56,062 nucleotides of DNA from Deltaproteobacteria bacterium (lineage in GTDB: Bacteria > Myxococcota_C > UBA6777), in the NCBI GenBank assembly GCA_002731275.1, contig PCBK01000034.1:1-56062 (forward strand), read 5' to 3'. Every line of letters starts with the position of its first letter. Position 1 is the first letter of the stretch. The notes beneath the pieces are model-generated. The model was not told the origin of the DNA and ran no database searches. It was given only the letters and a program-made list of their open reading frames with translations. The translations under genes were made by a program, and so were the position numbers. This document shows positions 9,491 through 25,643 of the stretch, piece after piece.

Positions 9491-9675
9491 GGTCTTATCT
9501 CCCTTCAGCGAAAATCACTATACAAACGAGAAAGCAAATCCAACTCCATTCATCTTGCTTTTTTTTCGGACTTTTTCTAGTAGCCTTGTTGTCTTTGTGA
9601 TTTGTGTGAGATCTCTGGTATATAGTTGAAGTGTTCAGTTGCGTTCTTATTTCTTCGAAGACTTGGAGGCATTTC

Positions 9676-10383
9676 GTGTGTGGTCGATTTATCATGACTG
9701 GAAGCAGCAAGGACATTGTTGCTTCGTTTCAGGTAGATAAAGTGTTGTTTGACGCGCACCCAACTTGGAACGTTGCGCCTGCACAGAGTGTGCCTGTGCT
9801 TCTGCGGCCTGAAGGGGAGACGTTGTTGACTTGTTTTCAGTGGGGGTTGATCCCCCCTTGGGCCAAAGATCCATCCATAGGACACAAGATGATCAACGCC
9901 CGCTCCGAGTCAGTGATGGATAAGAAGAGTTTTCGTCAGGCTTTTTTGCAGAGACGTTGTTTGGTGATCGCCGATGGATTTTACGAGTGGAAAAAACGCG
10001 GTCGCCACAAACAGCCGCGTCTCTTTCACATGCGTTCCAAGCGATTCTTTGCAATGGCAGGGCTTTGGGAGCGATGGTTTCCTCCCCGTGGTGGTACGCT
10101 CGATACATTTACAATCCTGACGACGACACCCAACCCGCTCGTCGCGGATGTCCACGACAGGATGCCTGTGATCCTACCTCCAGAGCATCATCTCCCCTGG
10201 CTTGATCCTGGATTTCGCGATGTGATGGCGCTCAAATCATTCTTGCAGCCTTTTCCCGAAGACCAAATGGATGTTCATCCTGTTTCTTCCAAAATGAACA
10301 CGCCCCGGTACAACCAGCCTGATTGCGTTCTCCCCGTCGAAGATGAATTGAAGACTGTACCCACCCAACAATCACTCTTTTGA
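9676..10383 (+). CDS. SOS response-associated peptidase / abasic-site shield protein (YedK/HMCES family)
   Basis: A 235-residue SRAP-domain protein. In this family the cysteine at position 2, freed by Met removal, crosslinks to abasic sites in single-stranded DNA. The start is a GTG at 9676 giving V/M-C-G-R-F; GGAGG lies six bases upstream, and earlier ATG codons would misplace the essential Cys2. Other active-site landmarks are present: NVAPAQ, WGLIPPWAKD, NARSES, the glutamate in ADGFYEWKK, and the histidine in HDRMPVIL. Its last 12 bases overlap the convergent gene's 3' end. The function is well supported by family and residue conservation; I see no LexA box that I can defend. Confidence 0.94.
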   Translation: MCGRFIMTGSSKDIVASFQVDKVLFDAHPTWNVAPAQSVPVLLRPEGETLLTCFQWGLIPPWAKDPSIGHKMINARSESVMDKKSFRQAFLQRRCLVIADGFYEWKKRGRHKQPRLFHMRSKRFFAMAGLWERWFPPRGGTLDTFTILTTTPNPLVADVHDRMPVILPPEHHLPWLDPGFRDVMALKSFLQPFPEDQMDVHPVSSKMNTPRYNQPDCVLPVEDELKTVPTQQSLF

Positions 10384-10791: not shown

Positions 10792-11065
10792 GGTTATGAG
10801 CGTCAGGGTCCTGTTTGTTCCAGATATGGCTGCTGTGTTTGTGACTGTGTACACAAAACACTTGTAGTGTGTATGCCTTATTTTGGAGCACAAGGCAATC
10901 TGTCGCCTTGTGCGTATTGGATGGGTTGAGGTAAAGACGAGGGGAAGGCTTTGTCGAATATGGAATACATTTGGTGTCAAAAGCCCCTTGCCATTTGTGG
11001 TGGGAGAGTGCAAGTTAAAGGAGTGTCAATCCCAAAATCCGGTTCCGTGTTGTGAGGAGGATGAT

Positions 11066-11554
11066 ATGAACAGGAGTGTGTCGATGAGGAGTGTATGGTT
11101 GGTTTTGTGTCTGCTGTGTCTATTGGGTGGTGCTGTCGACGCGAAGAAGCGTCGTTCTTCCAGGAAGGGTTTTGGGAAGATCAAAATTGAGGTGAGTCAG
11201 CTCCGAAGTAACAAGGGACAGTTGTTGATCTTGCTCTTTGACAAGTCGAGAAAGAAGTGGTTCCCAGCTCGTCACAAGAAAGCCTTACGTCAGGCGTTTG
11301 TGCCGATTAAGAAGCGCAAAGGTTATTATGAATTCAAGAAGCTGCCTTACGGGACGTATGCTTTGTCGATTGTTCATGACGCCAATAAGAACTTTCGCCT
11401 TGAGGCAAATGTGCTCGGGATTCCAGAGGAAGGTTTTGCTGTCTCGAAGAACATCCGTGCTGTTTTTGGTCCACCTTCTTTTAAGGATGCTGGATTTCGA
11501 CTCAAGCGTCGAGCTGTGACTGTCCATATCAAAATGCACTACAATAAAAAATAG
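11066..11554 (+). CDS. DUF2141 family secreted protein
   Basis: A 162-residue protein with a signal peptide (SVWLVLCLLCLLGGAVDA) followed by a ~120-residue DUF2141 domain. Family hallmarks are the opening strand with GQLLILLFD, the LPYGTYALSIVHDANKN segment, PEEGFAVS, and FGPPSFKDAGF. The domain is an all-beta extracytoplasmic module of unknown function found in many Gram-negative bacteria. GAGGAGG at 11054-11060, five bases before ATG 11066, fixes the start and makes the signal peptide N-terminal. It diverges from the small membrane protein gene over a 274-base spacer and is followed by the giant kinase gene on the same strand after 214 bases. Confidence 0.88.
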   Translation: MNRSVSMRSVWLVLCLLCLLGGAVDAKKRRSSRKGFGKIKIEVSQLRSNKGQLLILLFDKSRKKWFPARHKKALRQAFVPIKKRKGYYEFKKLPYGTYALSIVHDANKNFRLEANVLGIPEEGFAVSKNIRAVFGPPSFKDAGFRLKRRAVTVHIKMHYNKK

Positions 11555-11768: not shown

Positions 11769-14700
11769 ATGCTCGGAAAGTTTTTGGAGGCAGGTTTACA
11801 GGTTGCGCTTCAAATTCCCCAATTTAAGCTAGGGGGAGGCAAAGATGAGAACATCTTTAGACTTCTCCATGACCATTTTTACCAATCAAGTCATGCTCTT
11901 GGGCAATCCTTTCAGCGCTCCTACCACAAAAGCATGATGGTGATCGCAGCGGCTCTTGCGCCTCCAACTTTTTACAAGACAGCCTGGACGACATTTGATT
12001 CGAGGGTGACAAAAGAAGCCGATCAACTTATCCAAACGCGCTACTTTACAACTTTTTGTGAGCGCGAGGGTCTCCTTGAAGAAGTCGATAAGAAGACATT
12101 TTGTAAACAAGCGATCAAGACTTATCGACAAGCTGCAAAACGCGCTGAAGAACTCTTTCCTCTCGGACAATTCGATGAACCCAAACTTCGTGATATGCTC
12201 ACAAATACAGAGGATTCCGAGGAACTCGGAAGAATCCTCTTGTCATCTATTCAAAATGAGATCAAGGATAACACACAGTTTAAGTTTTTAGCTTATGAAG
12301 GCCTACTCTTGCAGATGGTTTTCTTCTTTTTTCAGGAGGAGCTTAGGCGAGAGCCCAAAGTGGAGGTGATGTTGAACACTCTCCAGCAATCTGGTCTCAG
12401 GAGTGATATTCGCGATGTGGAGACAGCACGGCAAGTGTCTTCAGCGGCAATCGAGTCCCAACTCGCCGAGGTGAATGATCAAATCGGAAAGCTCCAGCGA
12501 CGTCTTACGCAAGAGACGGATGCGATGTTCATCCATATGATGCAGCAACAACGTGATCTGCTACAGGCAAAACAAGAAGCCTATCAGGAAGAGCTACAAG
12601 CTCTCTCTACGCAGCTCCAACAAGCCCAGCAACAATGGGAGATGTTTGGTCAAAAGCTCGACACCTTTCGAGGGGAGTTTGGTGAGTGGTGTGGGATGGT
12701 CGCCTCGCATATCTCGGAGCTTGATGCGAAACTCGACAAGGCGCTCTTGATTCTTGAAAAGGAGATCAAAATACTTCTTGGTGAGATTGGGGGTGATGTC
12801 AAAACCCTGATCAAACAAGTGCAGGCGATGATGAACCACATGGGGTTGGGCTCGCAAGTCTCGATCCGACACGAATTCACCATTCACACCAACACCAACG
12901 TGGAGCTGATCAGGCAGGCCGCTGAACGTCTCGAGAAGACGCCAACTTCGACAAAGGAGTTCAGTCATCTGGCGATCCAAATTGGTAGCGCGCTGTCTTC
13001 AACGGGAGAGCTTGCGTGGGCCAAGAAGTATTTTGATCGTGCGTATATGAGCGCAAAAGAACACGGTGACGATAAGTACTTGGCGCTCGCTTCATACAAT
13101 CTTTTTCAGGTCGAGCTTCGACAGGGAGCCTACGAAGATGCGTTGAAGGCGCTTAAAGAGTCGATGCAACTCGATCCAGCCAACTACATGCTGTTTAATG
13201 CCGAAAAATACCATCCTTTGAAGATATTAGGTGCTGGTGGGATGGGATGTGCCTTCTTGTGTCGAGATGTTTTTCTCGACGAACTCGTTGTCATCAAGAC
13301 TTTTTGGAACCCCAAAAAAGGTTCGCTCAAAGAGGTCTTCAACGAAGCGTTTATTATGAGGAATGTCGACGTGAAAGGTGAGTTTATCCCTCGCCCCTTG
13401 CACATCGACTACGCAAACAACCAGACCAATGAGCGTCCGTATATTATTATGGAGTACATCGCGGATGCGATCGACGGCGAGGACTTCCTTGTAAAGTATG
13501 GTGCTCTGGAACTCTCCGAGGGGATTGGCCTGGGGGTGCAGGTTGCCCGTGCGCTCCATAAGGCACATCAAAAACATATCTACCACCTCGATCTCAAACC
13601 CTCTAACTTACTCTTACGTCGTGACGAAGAAGGCAAACTTCACTTCAAGATTATCGACTTTGGTTTGGCCCGCGCAGGCGTCTCCTTGCGGATGGAGGCC
13701 GCGAAGCAAAGCCATAGCGCGAGCGGTATGAGCCTCTTTTCACGTAATGTCTTCGGAACACTTGATTACTCTCCTCCTGAACAAAGAGGGATGATCGAAT
13801 ACGGAGAACCCGGTCCAAAAAGCGATATCTTTGCCTTTGGCAAGACGCTTTATCGACTTTTGAGCTTTGAACCTCCTCAACAACTGTTCCCCGATCCGCT
13901 CGAAGACAATATGCAGCTGTATCAACTCTTGCTGAGATGTGTTCGGCCACAACCTGCACAGCGTCCTGCATCAGCCGAAGAGGTCGCGAACGTGCTCGAA
14001 GAGATTTTGCACTCTTTGAAGCCTGATACGTCAAGTGTTAGGATCTCCGAACCTCTTCGGTTATTACTTGAGCAAGCGTTCGATGACAAGCTCCTCGAAG
14101 AGACTGAAGAGGACATGTTGTGGACTGTTGCTCGTGGGTTTGGTGTCGCCCTTGATGACTTTCAGCAGCTTATCGATGATTGGTTACGTGAGCACAAAGC
14201 CCGCAGACAGGTTGCGCTCAGGATCCAGGCCTGGATGTCGACGCAAACACCCCAACGCTTCCATATCCACGTTCTTTGGGGGGCTGTTAGCGAGGTATAT
14301 CCAAAAGATTACACTCTGGATGGATGTCGAAGGCTCCCGTGGCTGACACCTTCGCAAATCCTCAACGCTGATCCGAAGTTCCTAACAGATGACGAGGTAC
14401 ATTATTGGTTCTCCGAGTGGGAGCTGCCGACGATGGAGCAAAAGCAGAAAGAAGGGGAAGACAGCTCCTCTGAGTTTGTGCCGTTTATACCGGACTCTTT
14501 GACTGTTGATCGATTTGTAAAGTATATCGCGATTGAGTACGGTATTTGGGTTCAGCCACGTGACCCAGAGACTGATACGCCCGCGATACCCTCTCTTACA
14601 CTGTCTGAATGTCGGGCAAAGCTGCCCCAAGAGGGGGAGTTTAAGCCACATGGTGTCAACCGTGTCGCCAAAGTAAAGAAGTCTCTTGAAAAGTTGACAG

Positions 14701-16658
14701 GGCTTAAGCTGTGCATCCTTGATCCTGAAGGACAACCTGCTGAGGAGAATGCGAGACTCGCACAAAATTATATCACTGGAGGCAAGTGGCTCTCTGGAAT
14801 GGGCGAGATGGTTTTCTTTTGGCTCAAACCTCCACGTAAAGGAAAAGACCCTATATGGAAGAGGAATGGTTATCTTAGTTTTGGGAAGCACTTCTCTTGG
14901 CTCTTGGAGGGAGAAGATGCTCCGATCTTTATCCAGTCTTCAGAAGGGCACTTTCACGCAAAGATCTATCGATCAAAGACGCGCTTTGCGAACCTCTCCG
15001 AACTTTTTGGAGCGCATCCCACATTGGAAGCCGGGGATGTTGTTTGTTTGACACATCATGGGAACAATATTTTCACCTTTGATGTGTTTCCACAAGACGG
15101 TGAAGCAGGAACAAAGCTCGATATTCTCGATACTGTTGCCCCAGATTTCGATGTCGATTTTCCACCCATCCAAGAGGAGGTTGTTGTGGAAACGCTGGCA
15201 GATGTTTCATCAGAGGACGAGCTGGTAGTTGAAGATGAAGATGAGTCCGAAGATGAAGATGAGTCCGACGAGTCTGAAGATGACGAGGAAGAGAGTACGG
15301 AAGAGGACTTGAAAACGGTGGAGGCCGCAGAGGAGATTCACGCTGAAGCACCAGATGCGCTCGAAGGAGAGGGAGCACAAGAGCGCATGAAGGTCTCGCG
15401 TTTTGTGCGTGAGTTTGCGATTGAGCATGGTATCTGGTTCGATATGATGGACCCAGAGACTGAAGTGGTCGCTTCACCAAGTGCTTTTGTCGAAGACTTA
15501 CGTGTGCAAGAGCCTGTCCCCATGGAGTTATCTTTTCACGGTCGCAACCGAATCAAAAAGGTCCGCAATCGGATGAAGAAAGCCACTGGTTTGATGGTGC
15601 AGGTTCGCTCTGGAGACGGTCGTCTCGCGTCAGATGACGAAAAGCTCGCGATGCACCGTCTCCACGGTAATTCCTTTCTCACATTGATGGGAGAGAGTGT
15701 CTTTTTCACACTCAAACCAGCCATTGCTTCCTCAAACGGCATTCCTTCTTGGCGCAAAAATGGTGTCCTGTCTTTTGGCTCTTTGAAAGAGCGCGTTTTT
15801 CCCGAACAAGAGCCTGGACCGATTGTCGTCGAATGTGAGCATGGGTCGTTTGAAGGGGCACTCTCTCGGAAGTCGAACAGGTTGAAAGGGTTGAAGAAGT
15901 TGTTTGCCTCTTTTCCGGAGCTCGAAGTCGGCGATGTGGTGTGTGTGACCCGTGTTGACGCGGGTGTCTTCACGTTGGAGACATTCTTGCGTTCGACCGA
16001 AGAGGACGTGGAAGAGCTCGAAGAGATTGTCGAAGATGATAGCACGACAGCTGACTATGAAGTGTTTGAATCTGACGAAGAAGAGGAGACTTACGTTGGA
16101 CAAGAAGCTGTCGTGGTCCTGGAGAAGGAGGCTGGAGACGATTCATTGGCCTTACTCGTCGAGAAGGCCAAGATGTATTTGGGAGCAGGGAAGATCCAGG
16201 ATGCGCTTGCCTGTTACGAAGCGATGCATCTTTACCACAGAGATGTGGTAGATGAAGAGGCTGAGCTTTCTCGTCGTGTGGCTGCGGCGTTGTTGTATAA
16301 GCAGGGGCTTGAGTTGCTAGAGTACGCGCCAGAACAAGCGTTAAACAAATTTGAAGCTTCCTACGCGCTTGATCCCGAGTTTTTCCCCAAAGAGATTATG
16401 CGGCAGATGACGACGCTGCGCGAGGCGAAGGAGAAACAGCGAAAGGTTCGTTTTATCGGGCTTTGTCGCGAAGGGCAACACCTCTCCAAAACAGACCCTG
16501 CGCGTGCCCTTGGTAAATTTAATTTGGCGTATCGTCTTGCACCACAATTTTGGACAGAGAATCACACGAAGTGGGTACAGTATCTTCAGAAACTTGTAGC
16601 GCTTCAAAAAGAACGAGCCCAACATGACTCTGTGAGACATCTTGAGCAGCAATCTTGA
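11769..16658 (+). CDS. Giant Ser/Thr protein kinase with coiled coil, TPR-like repeats and a tandemly duplicated unknown domain
   Basis: A 1629-residue multidomain protein. Residues ~1-215 are an all-helical domain I do not recognise; ~220-305 a Gln-rich coiled coil; ~395-475 TPR-like helices (ending YEDALKALKESMQLDPAN). Residues ~480-750 are a Hanks-type kinase with glycine loop GAGGMG, lysine in VVIKTF, catalytic HLDLKPSN (Leu where HRD kinases have Arg) and DFGLA. Residues ~910-1110 and ~1207-1410 are two copies of one ~200-residue domain sharing RFV-x5-IE-x-GIW, DPET, KRNG/RKNG-LSFG and EAGDVVC/EVGDVVC patterns, joined by a linker almost entirely Asp/Glu/Ser. The last ~170 residues are TPR-like. 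No membrane segment is seen, so it is probably cytoplasmic. GGAGGTG precedes ATG 11769. It appears monocistronic; substrates are unknown. Confidence 0.88.
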   Translation: MLGKFLEAGLQVALQIPQFKLGGGKDENIFRLLHDHFYQSSHALGQSFQRSYHKSMMVIAAALAPPTFYKTAWTTFDSRVTKEADQLIQTRYFTTFCEREGLLEEVDKKTFCKQAIKTYRQAAKRAEELFPLGQFDEPKLRDMLTNTEDSEELGRILLSSIQNEIKDNTQFKFLAYEGLLLQMVFFFFQEELRREPKVEVMLNTLQQSGLRSDIRDVETARQVSSAAIESQLAEVNDQIGKLQRRLTQETDAMFIHMMQQQRDLLQAKQEAYQEELQALSTQLQQAQQQWEMFGQKLDTFRGEFGEWCGMVASHISELDAKLDKALLILEKEIKILLGEIGGDVKTLIKQVQAMMNHMGLGSQVSIRHEFTIHTNTNVELIRQAAERLEKTPTSTKEFSHLAIQIGSALSSTGELAWAKKYFDRAYMSAKEHGDDKYLALASYNLFQVELRQGAYEDALKALKESMQLDPANYMLFNAEKYHPLKILGAGGMGCAFLCRDVFLDELVVIKTFWNPKKGSLKEVFNEAFIMRNVDVKGEFIPRPLHIDYANNQTNERPYIIMEYIADAIDGEDFLVKYGALELSEGIGLGVQVARALHKAHQKHIYHLDLKPSNLLLRRDEEGKLHFKIIDFGLARAGVSLRMEAAKQSHSASGMSLFSRNVFGTLDYSPPEQRGMIEYGEPGPKSDIFAFGKTLYRLLSFEPPQQLFPDPLEDNMQLYQLLLRCVRPQPAQRPASAEEVANVLEEILHSLKPDTSSVRISEPLRLLLEQAFDDKLLEETEEDMLWTVARGFGVALDDFQQLIDDWLREHKARRQVALRIQAWMSTQTPQRFHIHVLWGAVSEVYPKDYTLDGCRRLPWLTPSQILNADPKFLTDDEVHYWFSEWELPTMEQKQKEGEDSSSEFVPFIPDSLTVDRFVKYIAIEYGIWVQPRDPETDTPAIPSLTLSECRAKLPQEGEFKPHGVNRVAKVKKSLEKLTGLKLCILDPEGQPAEENARLAQNYITGGKWLSGMGEMVFFWLKPPRKGKDPIWKRNGYLSFGKHFSWLLEGEDAPIFIQSSEGHFHAKIYRSKTRFANLSELFGAHPTLEAGDVVCLTHHGNNIFTFDVFPQDGEAGTKLDILDTVAPDFDVDFPPIQEEVVVETLADVSSEDELVVEDEDESEDEDESDESEDDEEESTEEDLKTVEAAEEIHAEAPDALEGEGAQERMKVSRFVREFAIEHGIWFDMMDPETEVVASPSAFVEDLRVQEPVPMELSFHGRNRIKKVRNRMKKATGLMVQVRSGDGRLASDDEKLAMHRLHGNSFLTLMGESVFFTLKPAIASSNGIPSWRKNGVLSFGSLKERVFPEQEPGPIVVECEHGSFEGALSRKSNRLKGLKKLFASFPELEVGDVVCVTRVDAGVFTLETFLRSTEEDVEELEEIVEDDSTTADYEVFESDEEEETYVGQEAVVVLEKEAGDDSLALLVEKAKMYLGAGKIQDALACYEAMHLYHRDVVDEEAELSRRVAAALLYKQGLELLEYAPEQALNKFEASYALDPEFFPKEIMRQMTTLREAKEKQRKVRFIGLCREGQHLSKTDPARALGKFNLAYRLAPQFWTENHTKWVQYLQKLVALQKERAQHDSVRHLEQQS

Positions 16659-16736: not shown

Positions 16737-17249
16737 CTATTTGAGGAAGCTCGGGACAAAATTGGGGTCATTCCACATCTTGTTGAATTTTCGCCCACGT
16801 TTTTTGCGGAACTTCTTGATGCGCTTCATGAAGTTCTTGATTTTTGTGCGCTGGACAGGTGTCAGGACATCTCTGGCTTGCAAGAGGTATGTGGTCTTGG
16901 AGAGCGCGATCTTCTTCGCTGTATCGAAGCCTTTGGCGACCAATTCATCGAGCTTTGTCTTGCTGGGGTTCTCTTCTGCCATCAACTTCTTGAGGCTGTC
17001 TTTGATGCCCTTCATTTGAGCTTTGTTCTGCACGACGTCTTTGCGAGCGTTCTTGAAGATGATGCGCAACCTCGCTTTTTGGTCTTGGGAGAGATCGAGC
17101 TTTTTGGCGATTCGTTTCATCAGCCAACCGTGTCGGTGCATCCGCTTGGCCACTGCGCTTGCGCCGAGACCTAACAGCATGAGGAATGCAAGCCCTCCGA
17201 GAATGAGTTTTCCTTTTTTAGATTGAACGGTGTTTCTCATTGTTTCCAT
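16737..17249 (-). CDS. Spy/CpxP-like periplasmic protein (LTxxQ type)
   Basis: A 170-residue protein with an N-terminal hydrophobic signal (KLILGGLAFLMLLGLGASAVA) and a long, strongly basic helical body. Two short repeats, LDLSQDQKARLR and LTPVQRTKIKNF, resemble the LTxxQ motifs of the Spy/CpxP family, whose members are periplasmic chaperones or sensors of envelope stress. The Lys/Arg-rich C-terminus is more basic than classical Spy. AAGGAGAA lies about six bases before ATG 17249. It converges with the kinase gene across 78 bases. The family assignment is reasonable; metal binding, as in CnrX/ZraP relatives, cannot be shown. Confidence 0.72.
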   Translation of the reverse strand: METMRNTVQSKKGKLILGGLAFLMLLGLGASAVAKRMHRHGWLMKRIAKKLDLSQDQKARLRIIFKNARKDVVQNKAQMKGIKDSLKKLMAEENPSKTKLDELVAKGFDTAKKIALSKTTYLLQARDVLTPVQRTKIKNFMKRIKKFRKKRGRKFNKMWNDPNFVPSFLK

Positions 17250-17970: not shown

Positions 17971-20900
17971 ATGATCGAACAAAGCGAAGAGCTCTTTTAT
18001 CAACTGAGGGGATTAGGGATGTGTGGCACGGTGTTGCATATTGGTGCTCACCCCGATGATGAAGAGATAGGCATGCTTTCCTACCTGACCCGTAAGTTTG
18101 GTGTTCGGGTGGTGTATTGGTCGGCGACGCGTGGTGAAGGTGGACAAAACAAAGCAGGACCATATACAGGTGATGGGCTGGGTATTTTCCGGACATGGGA
18201 GAGCGAAGAGGCGCGCAAAGAAGACGGAGGCGAGTGTCTTTTTGGACCTTTTGTCGACTTTGGTTTCTCCAAACATGGACAGGAGGGCTTTGATCGATGG
18301 GGGAGAACAGCCTTGGTGCGCGAGCTCGTACGGGCTATTCGCATGTCTCAGCCTCATATCGTAATCTCACGATGGACGGGAACACACATCGATGGACACG
18401 GACATCACGAGACAGTCGGGCAGGTCACAGAAGAAGCTTTTTATGCGGCGGCAGATCCCACTCAATTTCGAGAACTTGAAGCACAAGGTCTATACAGTTG
18501 GCGACCTCTCAAGCTCTATCTCTCTGAGATGAAGATCGGACATATTATGCCCGGGACGGTCCATCTGTTTGGTGCGTATCAAGAAGAACTAGAACGGCCG
18601 GGCGTTGTTCGTATTAACTGTGGTGAGTATGATCCTGTCTCAGGAAAAACATACCAGGAGCGCGCATGGTTAGCATATAACAAGCACCGCTCACAAGCGA
18701 TGGGATGGCTCCCCGAGCCAGGGGATTTTTACTATTACTTTAGCTTGCTGAAGAGTCTTATCCCCGTCCCTGAGAAAGAAGAGACTTTTTTCGAAGGGTT
18801 TGATCCTACGATAACAGGGCTTGCGACTTTGTGTGAAGGCGCTAAAGATGACACAAAAGCTGCGATTGCCGAACAACTCACACTGGCAAAGTCCTCTCTT
18901 CAGGTCGCGCTCGAAAACTTCCGCAGCAGTGATCCTCTCGACACAGTCATGCCACTGCTCGATGCTCATATCGCGCTTAAAACGACACAACAACTCATCT
19001 CCAACAACCCGACCCTGGATGATGACACCAAAGGTAGCGTCCTCTATTACCTGGAGCAGAAAGTGACGGCGCTGGAGGCTGTCACGATCAATTGCCTCGG
19101 CTTACAACTCGAAGCTCTTGGACCCCATCCTCGCACGACTCCTGGCGCAGCGCTGACTCTTGATATGCGCTTGTGGAATCATAGACACATTCCTCTCAAT
19201 AAGATCGCCTTTGACCTACAGGTTCCAGAGGGTTGGGATTACGAAGCGCGTGACGCTGTGCAGAGTCATTCTTCGAACTCAAACCGTCAGACCTTTGATG
19301 TCCAAGTCGCGAAAGACGCTGAACTCAGTTGTCCTTATTGGTTGTCAAAACCACGTGTGAATCCAAATGTCTTCGAGTGGCCGGAGGGAGAACCGAGCGG
19401 TCGTCCGATGGAACCCGCTCCTGTTATCGCCCACTGTGAGGTGATATACAAGGGGCATCATTTACATATGCAACAGGCATTCTCCTGTCGTGAGGCGTTC
19501 CCCGGTGGATTTCGAGAGCTGGCGGTCAAAGTTGTGGCTCCAATCTCTCTTACACCCAACACAAATCTCGAACTCCTCGCATGTTCATCTTCTGAACAAG
19601 TCCAGAGACTCCACATTCATGTTGAAAATAATAGATATGAAACGACAAAGGGCGAACTTTCCATTGTTGTTCCTCCTCATTGGAGAGTCGTTCCAGAGCG
19701 TCTGCCCGTTCAATTTGAAACCTGTGGTGAGAGTCAGAATGTGGCCTTTGATGTGCATATTCCAGGGGGGACATCTCCAGGGGATTACACTGTTGAGGTG
19801 CATCTTGACAGTGAAGGTCGAACATATCGGACATTTGCAGAGCCAGTGCGGATGGCGGCGCCTGGGCTGACTGAGCACTCGGCGAGTAAGTGTGTCGAAG
19901 AGACATTTATCCTGACGACGGCTGATATAAAATTCTCTATCCTGGATATCCGTTTTGTCTCCGGCTTGCGTTACGCTTACCTCGAAGGAGTGACCCAAAA
20001 GATCACAGATGTCTTGGAGGCTTTTGGTATCCGATGCGAAAAGTTGACGGATCGAGAGCTCGCGACAGTTGAGCTCAGTGTGTACGACGCGATCATCGTT
20101 GGTCAGAACGGGTATCTGGTCCGCGAAGCCATCAAGAAGTATGGACAAAGACTGCTCGATTATACATTCAATGGTGGCACGTTAATCGTCGAATTTCAGG
20201 GGTACGCATATCAAAATCAAGAGAACGCGCCGTATCCCTTTACATTCACGAAGCCACGGGATCGGGTTGTCAACGAGAACGCCGAGGTCACGTTGCTCAA
20301 CCCCGAACACTTTCTCTTTCAGTATCCAAACCAGATCACGAGCGAAGATTTTGAACGTTGGGTGACGGACAGAGGGCTCTACTTTTTTGGAGAGTGGGAC
20401 TCTCGCTACACGCCATTGATGTCTTGCGCAGACCCCGGAGAATCCCAGAAAGAGGGTGGGTTGTTGCTCGCTCATTATGGGAAGGGGACATTTTTGTACA
20501 ACGCCTATTCATTTTTCCGGCAGCTTCCTGCGGGGGTTCCGGGAGCGTTGCGTTTGTTCGCCAACATCTTGGCGCTCCCAGATGCCCGCATTCGAGAACG
20601 GATGAAGGTTTTGCAGAGTGTCGATATCTTCGAATCTCTATCCGAGACAGAGTTACGCGCAGTCGCACGGCAGGTGTCGGAAAGATGGGCCGAGCAAGAT
20701 GAAATCATCTGTCATAAGGGCGATCAAGGTGACTCCTTGTACATCGTTTACGCCGGCGCAATTGATATCGTCAACGAGGAAGGGCGCGTCGTGTACTGTG
20801 CAGGGCCAGGCGAATGTATCGGAGAACTTGCCGTCTTGTGTGACATCCCTCGTACCGCGATGATGAAAGCCCACAGGCAAACACAACTCCTCGAACTCAA

Positions 20901-21003
20901 AAGGGAGTCCGTCAACGCTCTGCTCGATCTCTATCCAAAGATGGCCCGCGAATTTATCCAAGTGCTTGTGCACCGTTTGTACGTCTCAGGAGATGACAAG
21001 TGA
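17971..21003 (+). CDS. PIG-L (BshB-like) N-acetylglucosaminyl deacetylase fused to a C-terminal cyclic-nucleotide-binding domain
   Basis: A 1010-residue fusion. Residues ~18-250 are a PIG-L zinc deacetylase: the HPDDE motif is at about 26-31 and the matching HIDGHGHHETVG motif near 140, so zinc ligands are intact. In the bacillithiol pathway such enzymes (BshB) deacetylate GlcNAc-malate. The middle (~380-650) contains beta-rich segments resembling NEW3-type accessory domains, then a GATase-like region (~660-860). Residues ~880-1000 form a CRP-type cyclic-nucleotide-binding domain with a phosphate cassette (GECIGELAVLCDIPRTA). No signal peptide is visible. It is the first gene of the operon; its stop overlaps the next GTG start by four bases. 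Allosteric control by cAMP or cGMP is an inference. Confidence 0.85.
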   Translation: MIEQSEELFYQLRGLGMCGTVLHIGAHPDDEEIGMLSYLTRKFGVRVVYWSATRGEGGQNKAGPYTGDGLGIFRTWESEEARKEDGGECLFGPFVDFGFSKHGQEGFDRWGRTALVRELVRAIRMSQPHIVISRWTGTHIDGHGHHETVGQVTEEAFYAAADPTQFRELEAQGLYSWRPLKLYLSEMKIGHIMPGTVHLFGAYQEELERPGVVRINCGEYDPVSGKTYQERAWLAYNKHRSQAMGWLPEPGDFYYYFSLLKSLIPVPEKEETFFEGFDPTITGLATLCEGAKDDTKAAIAEQLTLAKSSLQVALENFRSSDPLDTVMPLLDAHIALKTTQQLISNNPTLDDDTKGSVLYYLEQKVTALEAVTINCLGLQLEALGPHPRTTPGAALTLDMRLWNHRHIPLNKIAFDLQVPEGWDYEARDAVQSHSSNSNRQTFDVQVAKDAELSCPYWLSKPRVNPNVFEWPEGEPSGRPMEPAPVIAHCEVIYKGHHLHMQQAFSCREAFPGGFRELAVKVVAPISLTPNTNLELLACSSSEQVQRLHIHVENNRYETTKGELSIVVPPHWRVVPERLPVQFETCGESQNVAFDVHIPGGTSPGDYTVEVHLDSEGRTYRTFAEPVRMAAPGLTEHSASKCVEETFILTTADIKFSILDIRFVSGLRYAYLEGVTQKITDVLEAFGIRCEKLTDRELATVELSVYDAIIVGQNGYLVREAIKKYGQRLLDYTFNGGTLIVEFQGYAYQNQENAPYPFTFTKPRDRVVNENAEVTLLNPEHFLFQYPNQITSEDFERWVTDRGLYFFGEWDSRYTPLMSCADPGESQKEGGLLLAHYGKGTFLYNAYSFFRQLPAGVPGALRLFANILALPDARIRERMKVLQSVDIFESLSETELRAVARQVSERWAEQDEIICHKGDQGDSLYIVYAGAIDIVNEEGRVVYCAGPGECIGELAVLCDIPRTAMMKAHRQTQLLELKRESVNALLDLYPKMAREFIQVLVHRLYVSGDDK

Positions 21004-23332: not shown

Positions 23333-23420
23333 TCCAAACACAAGGAAAGGAGAGGCATCCTTCCTTTCGTGGCTCGACACGCAGCGCCGAACCACAAGGG
23401 GCTTGCTGCCTTTGTGTCAC

Positions 23421-25643
23421 ATGAAAACGAAAACCACCTCTGTCACTCCAAATCACTCATCTTTGCTTCAGGATATGCTTGCGGGGCCGATCGTTGCGGT
23501 TCTTTCGGCGGGCTTGATTTCGGGGATCATCACGACGATTTTTACGATCTCGCTTGTCAGCTTGATCTTTAGCGGTAAGCTCGCGAAGTTTGTCCCCTAC
23601 GGCGTCGGTTGGTTTTTGGTGGGGGCTGTGGTGCTAGGGCTGTGGATCGCGCTCTCTAGCTCCTACCGAGGGAACGTCGCATCTCCACAAGGCAAGCCCG
23701 CGGTCGTGTTGGTCTTGTCGGCGGCGGCGATATCGGCGAGTGTGAATGCCGTGCAATTGCTGCCAACAGTCTGTATGCTCATCGTCGTGACGTCTCTGGT
23801 GACGGGGATCTGCTTGTATTTGTTAGGTTACTTTCGGATGGGGAACCTGACGCGATTTATCCCTTTCCCTGTGATCGGTGGATTCCAGGTTGGGACGGGT
23901 TGGTTGATCGTCGTCGGTGCGTTCTCCGTGCTCACTGGACACAAATTGAGCATCGCGAATCTCGCGACCTTGTCGACGCCGGAAATGCTTTGGAGGTGGG
24001 TCCCTGCTTTATTGTATGCCATCGTGATGTTGTTGGTGTTGCGTTACAAAGCTCACTTTATGTCGTTGTTTGTGTTGTTACTGGGAGGGATCCTCTTGTT
24101 CCACCTTGTCGTGTGGGGGATGGGGGCATCGTATCTCGAACTTCGTCAGGCTCGGTGGCTGTTGGGTCCTTTTCCAAAGGGGAGTTTGTGGCAGCTTCCG
24201 ACGATGCAACATGTCTCTTGGGGGGCGATATCTTCTCAGACACCGACGATTCTCGTTGTCGTCTTATTTGCGGCGACGGACGTGTTGTTGAACGCTGTCG
24301 CAATTGAGGTCGCGACAGAAGAACGACTCGATTTGGATCAGGAGCTGAAGTCAACGGGCCTTGCCAACTTTGCATCTGGCTGGGTTGGAGGACTGACCGG
24401 TTACTGTGCGATCAGTTTATGTTTGCTCAACCATAAGATCGGCGCAAGTAGCCGATTGACTGCTGTGATGAGCGCTGTTGTCTGCGGGGTCTTTTTGCTG
24501 TGGGGGATCCCGCTGCTCGATTATTTTCCCGTGCAGGTGTTGGGTGGACTGCTTTTGTTTATTGGTTTCTCCTTCATGAAAGAGTGGTTGTGGGGAGGTT
24601 GGTCTCGTCTTCACACGATTGACTATCTCTTGTTGCTCTTGATCCTCGTCTTCATCGCGAGCTGGGGGTTTCTCGAAGGAGTGAGTGCTGGGCTGCTCAT
24701 CGCAATGGCGATCTTTATCGTCAATTATAGCCGGACCAACGTGATCAAGTTGGAGCTTTCTGGAGCTGAGCTTCGTAGCAATCGAGAACGTCGCCCTGAA
24801 GAAACTCTCGTGTTGGACGAGAAAGGTCAACAGATCCACGTGATGAAGTTACAGGGATTTGTGTTCTTTGGGACTGCCAATCATTTGCTCGAACAGTACA
24901 GGGATTTGTTTGAAACAGAGACTGGACGCAAGCTTCCTCTTCGTTTTGTGATCCTCGACTTTCGTGCGGTTACGGGGATCGACTCATCGGCGACAGCCAG
25001 CTTTCGTCAGATGATTCAATCTTCTTCTGCCTATGAAACCCAGCTACTTTTTGCGAACGTCTCCGAAGATATCGGGCGTATTTTGGACGCACAGGGGCTG
25101 CGGGCCACCACACTCTCGCTGCTGGGTGACAAAACCCATCTCAACGATTGTTTGGAGTGGTGTGAGGAGCAGCTTCTCCTGGAAGCCAGTCACACCGCCC
25201 CAAAAGAGCACTCCTTCGCGTTGGTGCTGGCGGACATGTTTCGGGAGGAAGATGTCGAACATTTCCGCGATGTGCTCATTCGCAAAGAGTTCGCAGAAGG
25301 TGAAGTCCTTTTCACGGAGAACGCAGAGAGTGACGCGTTGTACTTTATCGAAAAAGGTCAAGTCGCTGCCTGGATCTCCAATCCATTTGGTCAGCAAGAG
25401 AGGATTCGGAGCTTTGGTGTTGGCGCGATTATCGGTGAAATGGGTTTGTACACACAGGCACCACGCTCTGCGACTTTGATCGCCGTCGAAGACTCCGTAT
25501 TGTTCCTCCTAACAAAAGAAACCCTCGATCAGCTCGAAAAAGAGCAGCCACTGTTGGCGAGTTCATTTCACCATTATATAGCCCGCGTGTTGGCCGAACG
25601 TCTGGGACAGGCCAACAATGTACTCAAATTTTTGCTCAAGTGA
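23421..25643 (+). CDS. SulP family anion transporter with STAS and C-terminal cyclic-nucleotide-binding domain
   Basis: A 740-residue inner-membrane transporter. About residues 20-440 hold 10 or more hydrophobic segments with SulP landmarks (RFIPFPVIGGFQVGTGWL; ELKSTGLANFASGWVGG). A STAS domain follows (~470-570; LRFVILDFRAVTGIDSSA). Residues ~605-735 are a CRP-like nucleotide-binding domain with an intact cassette (GAIIGEMGLYTQAPRSA). SulP proteins move sulfate, bicarbonate or C4-dicarboxylates. In this operon sulfate (for cysteine) or malate (BshA substrate) would both make sense, but the substrate cannot be read. Start is uncertain: ATG 23421 has no ribosome site, and TTG 23403 is possible. 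It lies 88 bases after the BshC-like gene and 14 before the next gene. Confidence 0.88.
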   Translation: MKTKTTSVTPNHSSLLQDMLAGPIVAVLSAGLISGIITTIFTISLVSLIFSGKLAKFVPYGVGWFLVGAVVLGLWIALSSSYRGNVASPQGKPAVVLVLSAAAISASVNAVQLLPTVCMLIVVTSLVTGICLYLLGYFRMGNLTRFIPFPVIGGFQVGTGWLIVVGAFSVLTGHKLSIANLATLSTPEMLWRWVPALLYAIVMLLVLRYKAHFMSLFVLLLGGILLFHLVVWGMGASYLELRQARWLLGPFPKGSLWQLPTMQHVSWGAISSQTPTILVVVLFAATDVLLNAVAIEVATEERLDLDQELKSTGLANFASGWVGGLTGYCAISLCLLNHKIGASSRLTAVMSAVVCGVFLLWGIPLLDYFPVQVLGGLLLFIGFSFMKEWLWGGWSRLHTIDYLLLLLILVFIASWGFLEGVSAGLLIAMAIFIVNYSRTNVIKLELSGAELRSNRERRPEETLVLDEKGQQIHVMKLQGFVFFGTANHLLEQYRDLFETETGRKLPLRFVILDFRAVTGIDSSATASFRQMIQSSSAYETQLLFANVSEDIGRILDAQGLRATTLSLLGDKTHLNDCLEWCEEQLLLEASHTAPKEHSFALVLADMFREEDVEHFRDVLIRKEFAEGEVLFTENAESDALYFIEKGQVAAWISNPFGQQERIRSFGVGAIIGEMGLYTQAPRSATLIAVEDSVLFLLTKETLDQLEKEQPLLASSFHHYIARVLAERLGQANNVLKFLLK

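Follow-up and report, generated by a model that had tools for sequence, protein, structure and literature searches.

PknG is a kinase with TPR and, together with the other Hanks-type bacterial Ser/Thr kinases, is among the described proteins closest to the one presented here; others are MAD6 of MADS, PglW of BREX, and proteins with pseudobarrel domains of the B3 type. In the available part of PMC2688026, the B3 domain is described as having seven strands and two helices, and the β1-β2 and β4-β5 loops are proposed as its DNA-contact loops. The starts of the corresponding two arms of AtABI3 are 46 residues apart, at 576 and 622 (PMC8398556, available sections). In R.NgoAVII and R.CglI, the B3-like domain guides the nuclease or restriction complex (PMC4267653, available sections).

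Here we describe a bacterial kinase gene in which parts of these known kinds appear to be joined in a new combination. Our literature searches returned nothing on kinases with a B3-like domain by title or abstract opening, with most subscription papers outside their coverage. As far as such searches tell, the suggestion of a first-pass annotation of this DNA that the architecture is undescribed stands.

Overall architecture

The DNA analysed is a stretch of 56,062 nucleotides (the window) from a 10.75-Mb genome (G000) assembled in 200 contigs, with 94.65% completeness and 5.5% contamination. The gene lies at 11769..16658 on the forward strand, which carries all of its parts given below, and is one uninterrupted open frame with an ATG start. 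It encodes 1629 aa with a PF00069 match at residues 481-748, so the 1629-residue kinase announced by the first-pass annotation was recovered as a single open reading frame. The highest mean of any 19-residue Kyte-Doolittle segment in the whole protein was 1.42, and no membrane span was evident. Our best reading is a soluble, cytosolic Hanks-type Ser/Thr kinase scaffold, and we judged the scaffold-like architecture proposed earlier to be supported.

An all-helical N-terminal domain (NTD, residues 1-214, 11769..12410) is followed by a coiled coil (residues 215-360, 12411..12848), which was recognized by its composition and by weak matches to coiled-coil-type families, such as FH2 and DUF4407, below the Pfam cut-off. 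Helical repeats resembling TPR come next (residues 361-475, 12849..13193). TPR families stayed below cut-off in this region (TPR_12, 19.4 bits against 30.1 in Pfam), and designed TPR proteins matched it at E 1.1e-5. TPR-like ends had been claimed for the protein. The repeats on the N-terminal side look TPR-like, but they are located at about residues 402-472, directly before the kinase, and not at the N terminus. The C-terminal tail (about residues 1459-1629, 16143..16655) had no Pfam match and is TPR-like by eye only; over tail residues 8-174 it is 33% identical to the tail of the relative in genome G004. Between the kinase and the first of two repeated units is a post-kinase region (residues 749-904, 14013..14480).

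The two units are separated by an acidic linker (residues 1117-1200, 15117..15368), and a second acidic stretch with 19 D/E in 43 residues follows the second unit (residues 1416-1458, 16014..16142). The linker had been described as almost wholly acidic; with 41 D/E and 2 K/R in the 90 residues from 1117 to 1206 it is strongly acidic, which is less than that wording implied. We considered the linker as a DNA mimic blocking the B3 face and dropped this reading because the G004 linker has 36 D/E in 181 residues. Around residues 1235-1270 of the G004 protein (1805 aa, locus L040), that linker holds two occurrences of a Thr-rich motif, SETFEPTA.DST, which is conceivable as a phosphorylation or FHA-binding site.

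The kinase domain

The kinase domain (residues 481-748, 13209..14012) matched PF00069 with an E value of 1.5e-26 and 93.8 bits, against a cut-off of 31.7 (Pfam). Its motifs are GAGGMG at 488, VVIK at 507-510, NEAF at 525, HLD at 606-608, DFG at 630 and PPEQ at 669. The catalytic motifs are thus present, and kinase activity is predicted from them. The arginine of the HRD motif is replaced by Leu in the window kinase (HLD) and by Phe in the G004 relative (HFD), and the kinase is therefore of the non-RD type. At least 151 protein kinase matches were found in the genome; among the 30 best-scoring loci, HRD was read in 29 and YRD in 1. Since this sample represents the best-scoring end of the matches, a rarity of non-RD kinases in the genome does not follow from it.

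The duplicated unit in sequence

Copy A (residues 905-1116, 14481..15116) and copy B (residues 1201-1415, 15369..16013) align with 77 of 207 positions identical (37%), 3 gaps and an E value of 3e-46 (BLASTP), far beyond chance. The conserved blocks follow one another identically in copies A and B: RFV (915 and 1211), GIW (925 and 1221), DPET (932 and 1228), NGYLSFG at 1033 in copy A with NGVLSFG at 1331 in copy B, and GDVVC (1089 and 1388). The two copies of about 200 residues with shared motif blocks were thus found exactly as first reported, with every motif present. An internal repeat seen by eye in the N-terminal half of the unit was not supported by a shuffle test, in which 189, 378, 371 and 44 of 500 shuffles reached the score for the four copies (the two of the window and the two of G004).

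In Pfam, no family matched any of the four copies at E values up to 10. No NCBIfam family matched the unit, no PADLOC model lay over it, and there was no match among PDB sequences up to E 10. One PHROGs family matched a single copy of the four at E 0.29, which we dismissed as chance. The description of the unit as being of unknown family is accordingly correct for sequence, and it fails for the C-terminal half, for which the B3 DNA-binding pseudobarrel, a fold already described, is predicted; the unit is for this reason not wholly unknown.

Of the five genomes sampled from the phylum (G000-G004), two contain the unit, and a bacteria-wide search with the unit profile found it in 2 of 386 genomes, the same G000 and G004. 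Within G000 it was found only in the window gene, other rows being at E 0.3 or worse. The G004 relative, the one other full-length protein found, is 1805 aa long and has both units and the same domain order. Identity between the two proteins is 46% in the kinase, 23% in the NTD, 28-29% in the units, 32-33% in the C-terminal tail and 27% in the post-kinase region (residues 751-900). In G001, the NTD and coiled coil run up to the contig end, which cuts the gene, and neither its kinase part nor its units were found; G002 and G003 had no unit match. A weak match in genome G046 (57 positions, E 0.0055) was dropped, as it was absent among the matches listed with the four-copy profile. A scan of genome contigs with one pattern yielded 30 candidate stretches and one confirmed hit, the G004 record. 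The unit without a kinase, a search proposed in the first-pass annotation, was encountered nowhere among the 386 genomes or in the genome-contig, viral, phage and plasmid collections searched. Independent duplication in the two lineages is one possible reading of a tree in which the copies group by genome (ultrafast bootstrap 83%), but neither alternative is rejected in an AU test (0.174 and 0.199).

Fold of the unit

AlphaFold2 was run on copy A with an alignment of the four known copies. The best model had a pLDDT of 89.0 and a pTM of 0.83, and the five models spanned pLDDT 83.5-89.0. In this model, the second half (unit residues 104-208, 14790..15104) is, with high confidence, a B3-like DNA-binding pseudobarrel, and the first half is predicted to be an alpha/beta domain. 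The elements run β1-loop-β2-helix-β3-β4-loop-β5-helix-β6-β7, the same order as that given for the B3 domain in the available part of PMC2688026; copy A is thus modelled as an open barrel of seven strands and two helices, arranged as in B3. Copy B probably adopts the same fold as copy A, judging from 36-37% identity, with its B3-like half at about 15678-15998 by alignment.

Structural searches agreed with this assignment. In Foldseek against the PDB, ranks 1-29 were all B3 or restriction-enzyme pseudobarrels, with a best E value of 2.4e-3, a probability of 1.00 for the top six and no match reaching E 0.001. In VIA-align, rows 1-28 were all of the B3-type fold, most of them aligned to about unit residues 107-208 and some beginning earlier. 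The highest Z scores were those of 1yel (10.0, rmsd 2.5, 92 residues aligned), VRN1 (4i1k; 9.9, rmsd 2.4, 92 aligned) and LlaJI.R1 (6c5d; 9.4, rmsd 2.8, 96 aligned), and BfiI (7.5), EcoRII (6.8), NgoAVII (6.0) and UbaLAI (5.0) scored lower; 19 rows had Z of 8.0 or more, and a Z under 8 may reflect a common arrangement. Row 29 (Z 4.4, 59 residues) aligned the N-terminal half of the unit with ubiquitin-like proteins, at Z scores of at most 4.4, which are within the range of unrelated folds.

No similarity of the unit to B3 was detected at the sequence level (Pfam, PDB sequences). PF02362 (B3) had no match over cut-off in the whole genome and none at the window gene, and because the unit copies have no match to this profile we use the term B3-like fold and not B3 family member. 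Three LlaJI loci, from 3 of the 386 genomes, provided no usable set of B3 domains for a profile comparison, and a literature search returned nothing on LlaJI. A 96-aa protein of Erwinia phage Ea35-70 with unknown function (BFVD W6B1I5) matched the unit model over 98 alignment columns in Foldseek, with probability 1.00, E 0.025 and TM 0.62 by target length; it is possibly a small phage B3-like protein.

The putative DNA-contact loops

The loops of the unit that match the two proposed contact loops start 47 residues apart (unit residues 116-131 and 163-170), with boundaries set by hand. Over the four copies, these two loops contain 27 K/R and 8 D/E and the rest of the half 25 K/R and 46 D/E, with a Fisher p of 6.7e-5 that is optimistic because the loop boundaries were hand-set and the rows are related. 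When the same spacing was slid along as a control, 3 of 158 placements reached the observed score: the observed placement itself, the same placement moved by two residues, and one that starts, and largely lies, in the other half. The loop charges are +5 and +3 in one window copy and +3 and +4 in the other, so both loops are basic in both. The G004 copies have charges of -1 and +4 in one case and +2 and -1 in the other, leaving one non-basic loop per copy. On balance, the data therefore favour, but do not establish, contact of the window protein with DNA, and we infer DNA binding by the B3-like units.

The main rival to DNA contact holds that the barrels are modules for binding proteins or peptides, through which substrates or partners would be brought to the kinase with no part for DNA. 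Besides the non-basic loops of G004, the net charges of the B3-like halves (0, +1, -2 and -1 in the four copies) speak for it, being neutral overall, as does the fact that this half is here always joined to a second alpha/beta half. The kinase is also flanked by TPR-like and coiled-coil regions, which are typical of protein assembly. The nearest fold matches point both ways: for the B3 protein 1yel, with the top Z, DNA binding has been doubted, but VRN1, second in Z, is reported to have non-specific DNA binding in vitro although its loops are reduced (both in the available part of PMC2688026). The basic charge, in both window copies, of the loops that in B3 domains face DNA likewise argues against a pure protein-binding role. 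We regard protein binding as a genuine possibility, and still give DNA contact by the B3-like units a tentative preference.

Gene neighbourhood

Upstream on the same strand are a SRAP gene (9631-10383) and, at a distance of 214 bases from the start codon, a DUF2141 gene (10883-11554). Downstream, a small protein is encoded on the opposite strand (16737-17249), and an unrelated gene series starts at 17971. No operon partner was evident for the kinase gene. No RNA families were found in the window, and a promoter and terminator scan gave counts close to those of shuffled sequence. In the downstream series, the product of 17971-21003 (+; PIG-L and NEW3) and that of 23403-25643 (+; SulP transporter and STAS) both end in a cyclic-nucleotide-binding domain, for which these are unusual fusion partners. 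PADLOC matches to TIR effectors at these two genes cover only the nucleotide-binding part.

The protein had also been likened to a conflict-type sensor, for which nothing specific emerged. As a sensor kinase of conflict or phage defence, it would recognize invading DNA through its B3-like modules and turn on the kinase. The bacterial B3-like structures matched do come from restriction enzymes, and the kinase domain has hits to kinase models of PADLOC (mad6, E 7.2e-37). However, the MADS and PglW profile matches are confined to the generic kinase domain and far below cut-offs (NCBIfam MAD6, 77.1 against 460), and no defence gene was recognized among the neighbours scanned, 18 with Pfam and 5 with PADLOC. 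The unit was also not found in the viral, phage or plasmid collections searched (16 candidate stretches in viral contigs, none confirmed; none in plasmids and phages). We consider a defence role improbable.

Behind the G004 gene come a vWA gene, a PP2C gene and another kinase, the last having matches to HHH and PEGA (L040:11919-16416, +); we take this series to resemble the TerY-P triad. A stress-signalling kinase working with such a triad is suggested by this arrangement, but no vWA or PP2C gene was recognized beside the window gene, and the neighbourhood is therefore not conserved with G004; this explanation is more improbable still. Since no neighbour was recognized as common to G000 and G004, the neighbourhood assigns no function.

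The N-terminal domain and FHA proteins

The N-terminal helical domain had been listed as unrecognised, and it drew no convincing match from Foldseek or VIA-align. Its model is all-helical (pLDDT 75, pTM 0.74). The best Foldseek E value was 0.36 and the best VIA-align Z was 5.0 at an rmsd of 12.1, so no fold is claimed; the missing match is no sign of a new fold. An RPW8 match in one of seven members (E 0.19) was at chance level and was discarded. A profile built from residues 1-214 and six relatives matched 5 of 5 genomes of the phylum and 0 of 381 others.

The NTD also heads a second type of protein, with a coiled coil and FHA domains, in G000 (672 aa, C3:83729-85747), G002, G003 and G004 (L046:8730-10748, -; L047:8576-10549, -; L059:1432-3276, +; L061:157-2151, -). 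Pfam confirmed the FHA assignment for the proteins of G000 and G002, and for those of G003 and G004 it was read from similarity alone. A kinase gene adjoins the FHA protein in G000 (PF00069, C3:82571-83194) and, as read by eye, in G002, and WD40-like repeats were read by eye at both kinase genes. The NTD-FHA protein and this WD40-like kinase are a possible kinase-reader pair in these two genomes. Two similar, secreted-looking proteins are encoded in tandem beside the FHA protein at L046:11226-13699 (+), and single genes related to them adjoin the FHA protein in G002, G003 and G004. The presence of the NTD, which these searches met only within one small phylum, in both the window kinase and the FHA protein marks the two as a candidate kinase-reader pair.

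Proposed mode of action

Taken as a whole, we tentatively favour a soluble kinase scaffold whose tandem B3-like units touch DNA and whose NTD pairs it with an FHA partner. The B3-like pseudobarrel of each unit would most likely touch DNA, so that the kinase would be held at DNA, or its activity or substrate access set by DNA. Through the flexible linker, the two modules could grip two nearby DNA sites. The NTD and coiled coil may assemble the protein and pair the kinase with the FHA protein bearing the same NTD, and the FHA domains of this partner might read phosphothreonine marks made by the kinase. DNA contact and the two-site grip are suggested by the fold, loops and linker, and shared domains are the single line of evidence for NTD pairing and FHA read-out.

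A bolder version, which we offer as speculation and think rather doubtful, is that the kinase reads DNA directly: the tandem B3-like modules would recognize DNA and place or switch the eukaryote-type, non-RD kinase, and its marks would be read by the NTD-sharing FHA protein. If true, a phospho-signalling pathway would be wired to DNA in a little-known lineage, and the B3-like module would have a third setting besides the two in which our searches encountered it, plant regulators and restriction enzymes.

Comparison with known systems

With MAD6 of MADS and PglW of BREX, the window protein shares a kinase domain; it differs in that the scores are far below cut-offs and the match is limited to the kinase region. 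The likeness to Hanks-type bacterial Ser/Thr kinases, including PknG, extends to the kinase fold, the catalytic motifs and the position of the kinase beside TPR-like repeats. Unlike them, the window protein has HLD for HRD, the NTD, a coiled coil and duplicated B3-like units. With plant B3 domains (VRN1 4i1k, At1g16640/REM14 1yel, FUS3, VAL1 and ARFs), the C-terminal half of the unit shares the predicted fold and element order, whereas sequence similarity is not detectable and the half is fused to a kinase and, on its N-terminal side, to an additional alpha/beta half. The B3-like domains of the restriction enzymes LlaJI.R1, BfiI, EcoRII, R.NgoAVII and UbaLAI have the same fold and are bacterial, with Z from 9.4 to 5.0; in contrast to these enzymes, the window protein includes a kinase, and Pfam detected no nuclease domain in it. 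If the units do bind DNA, the B3 fold would serve here in a role beyond those of transcription factor and restriction enzyme, and phospho-signalling of the eukaryote type and a DNA-recognition fold would be joined in one bacterial chain.
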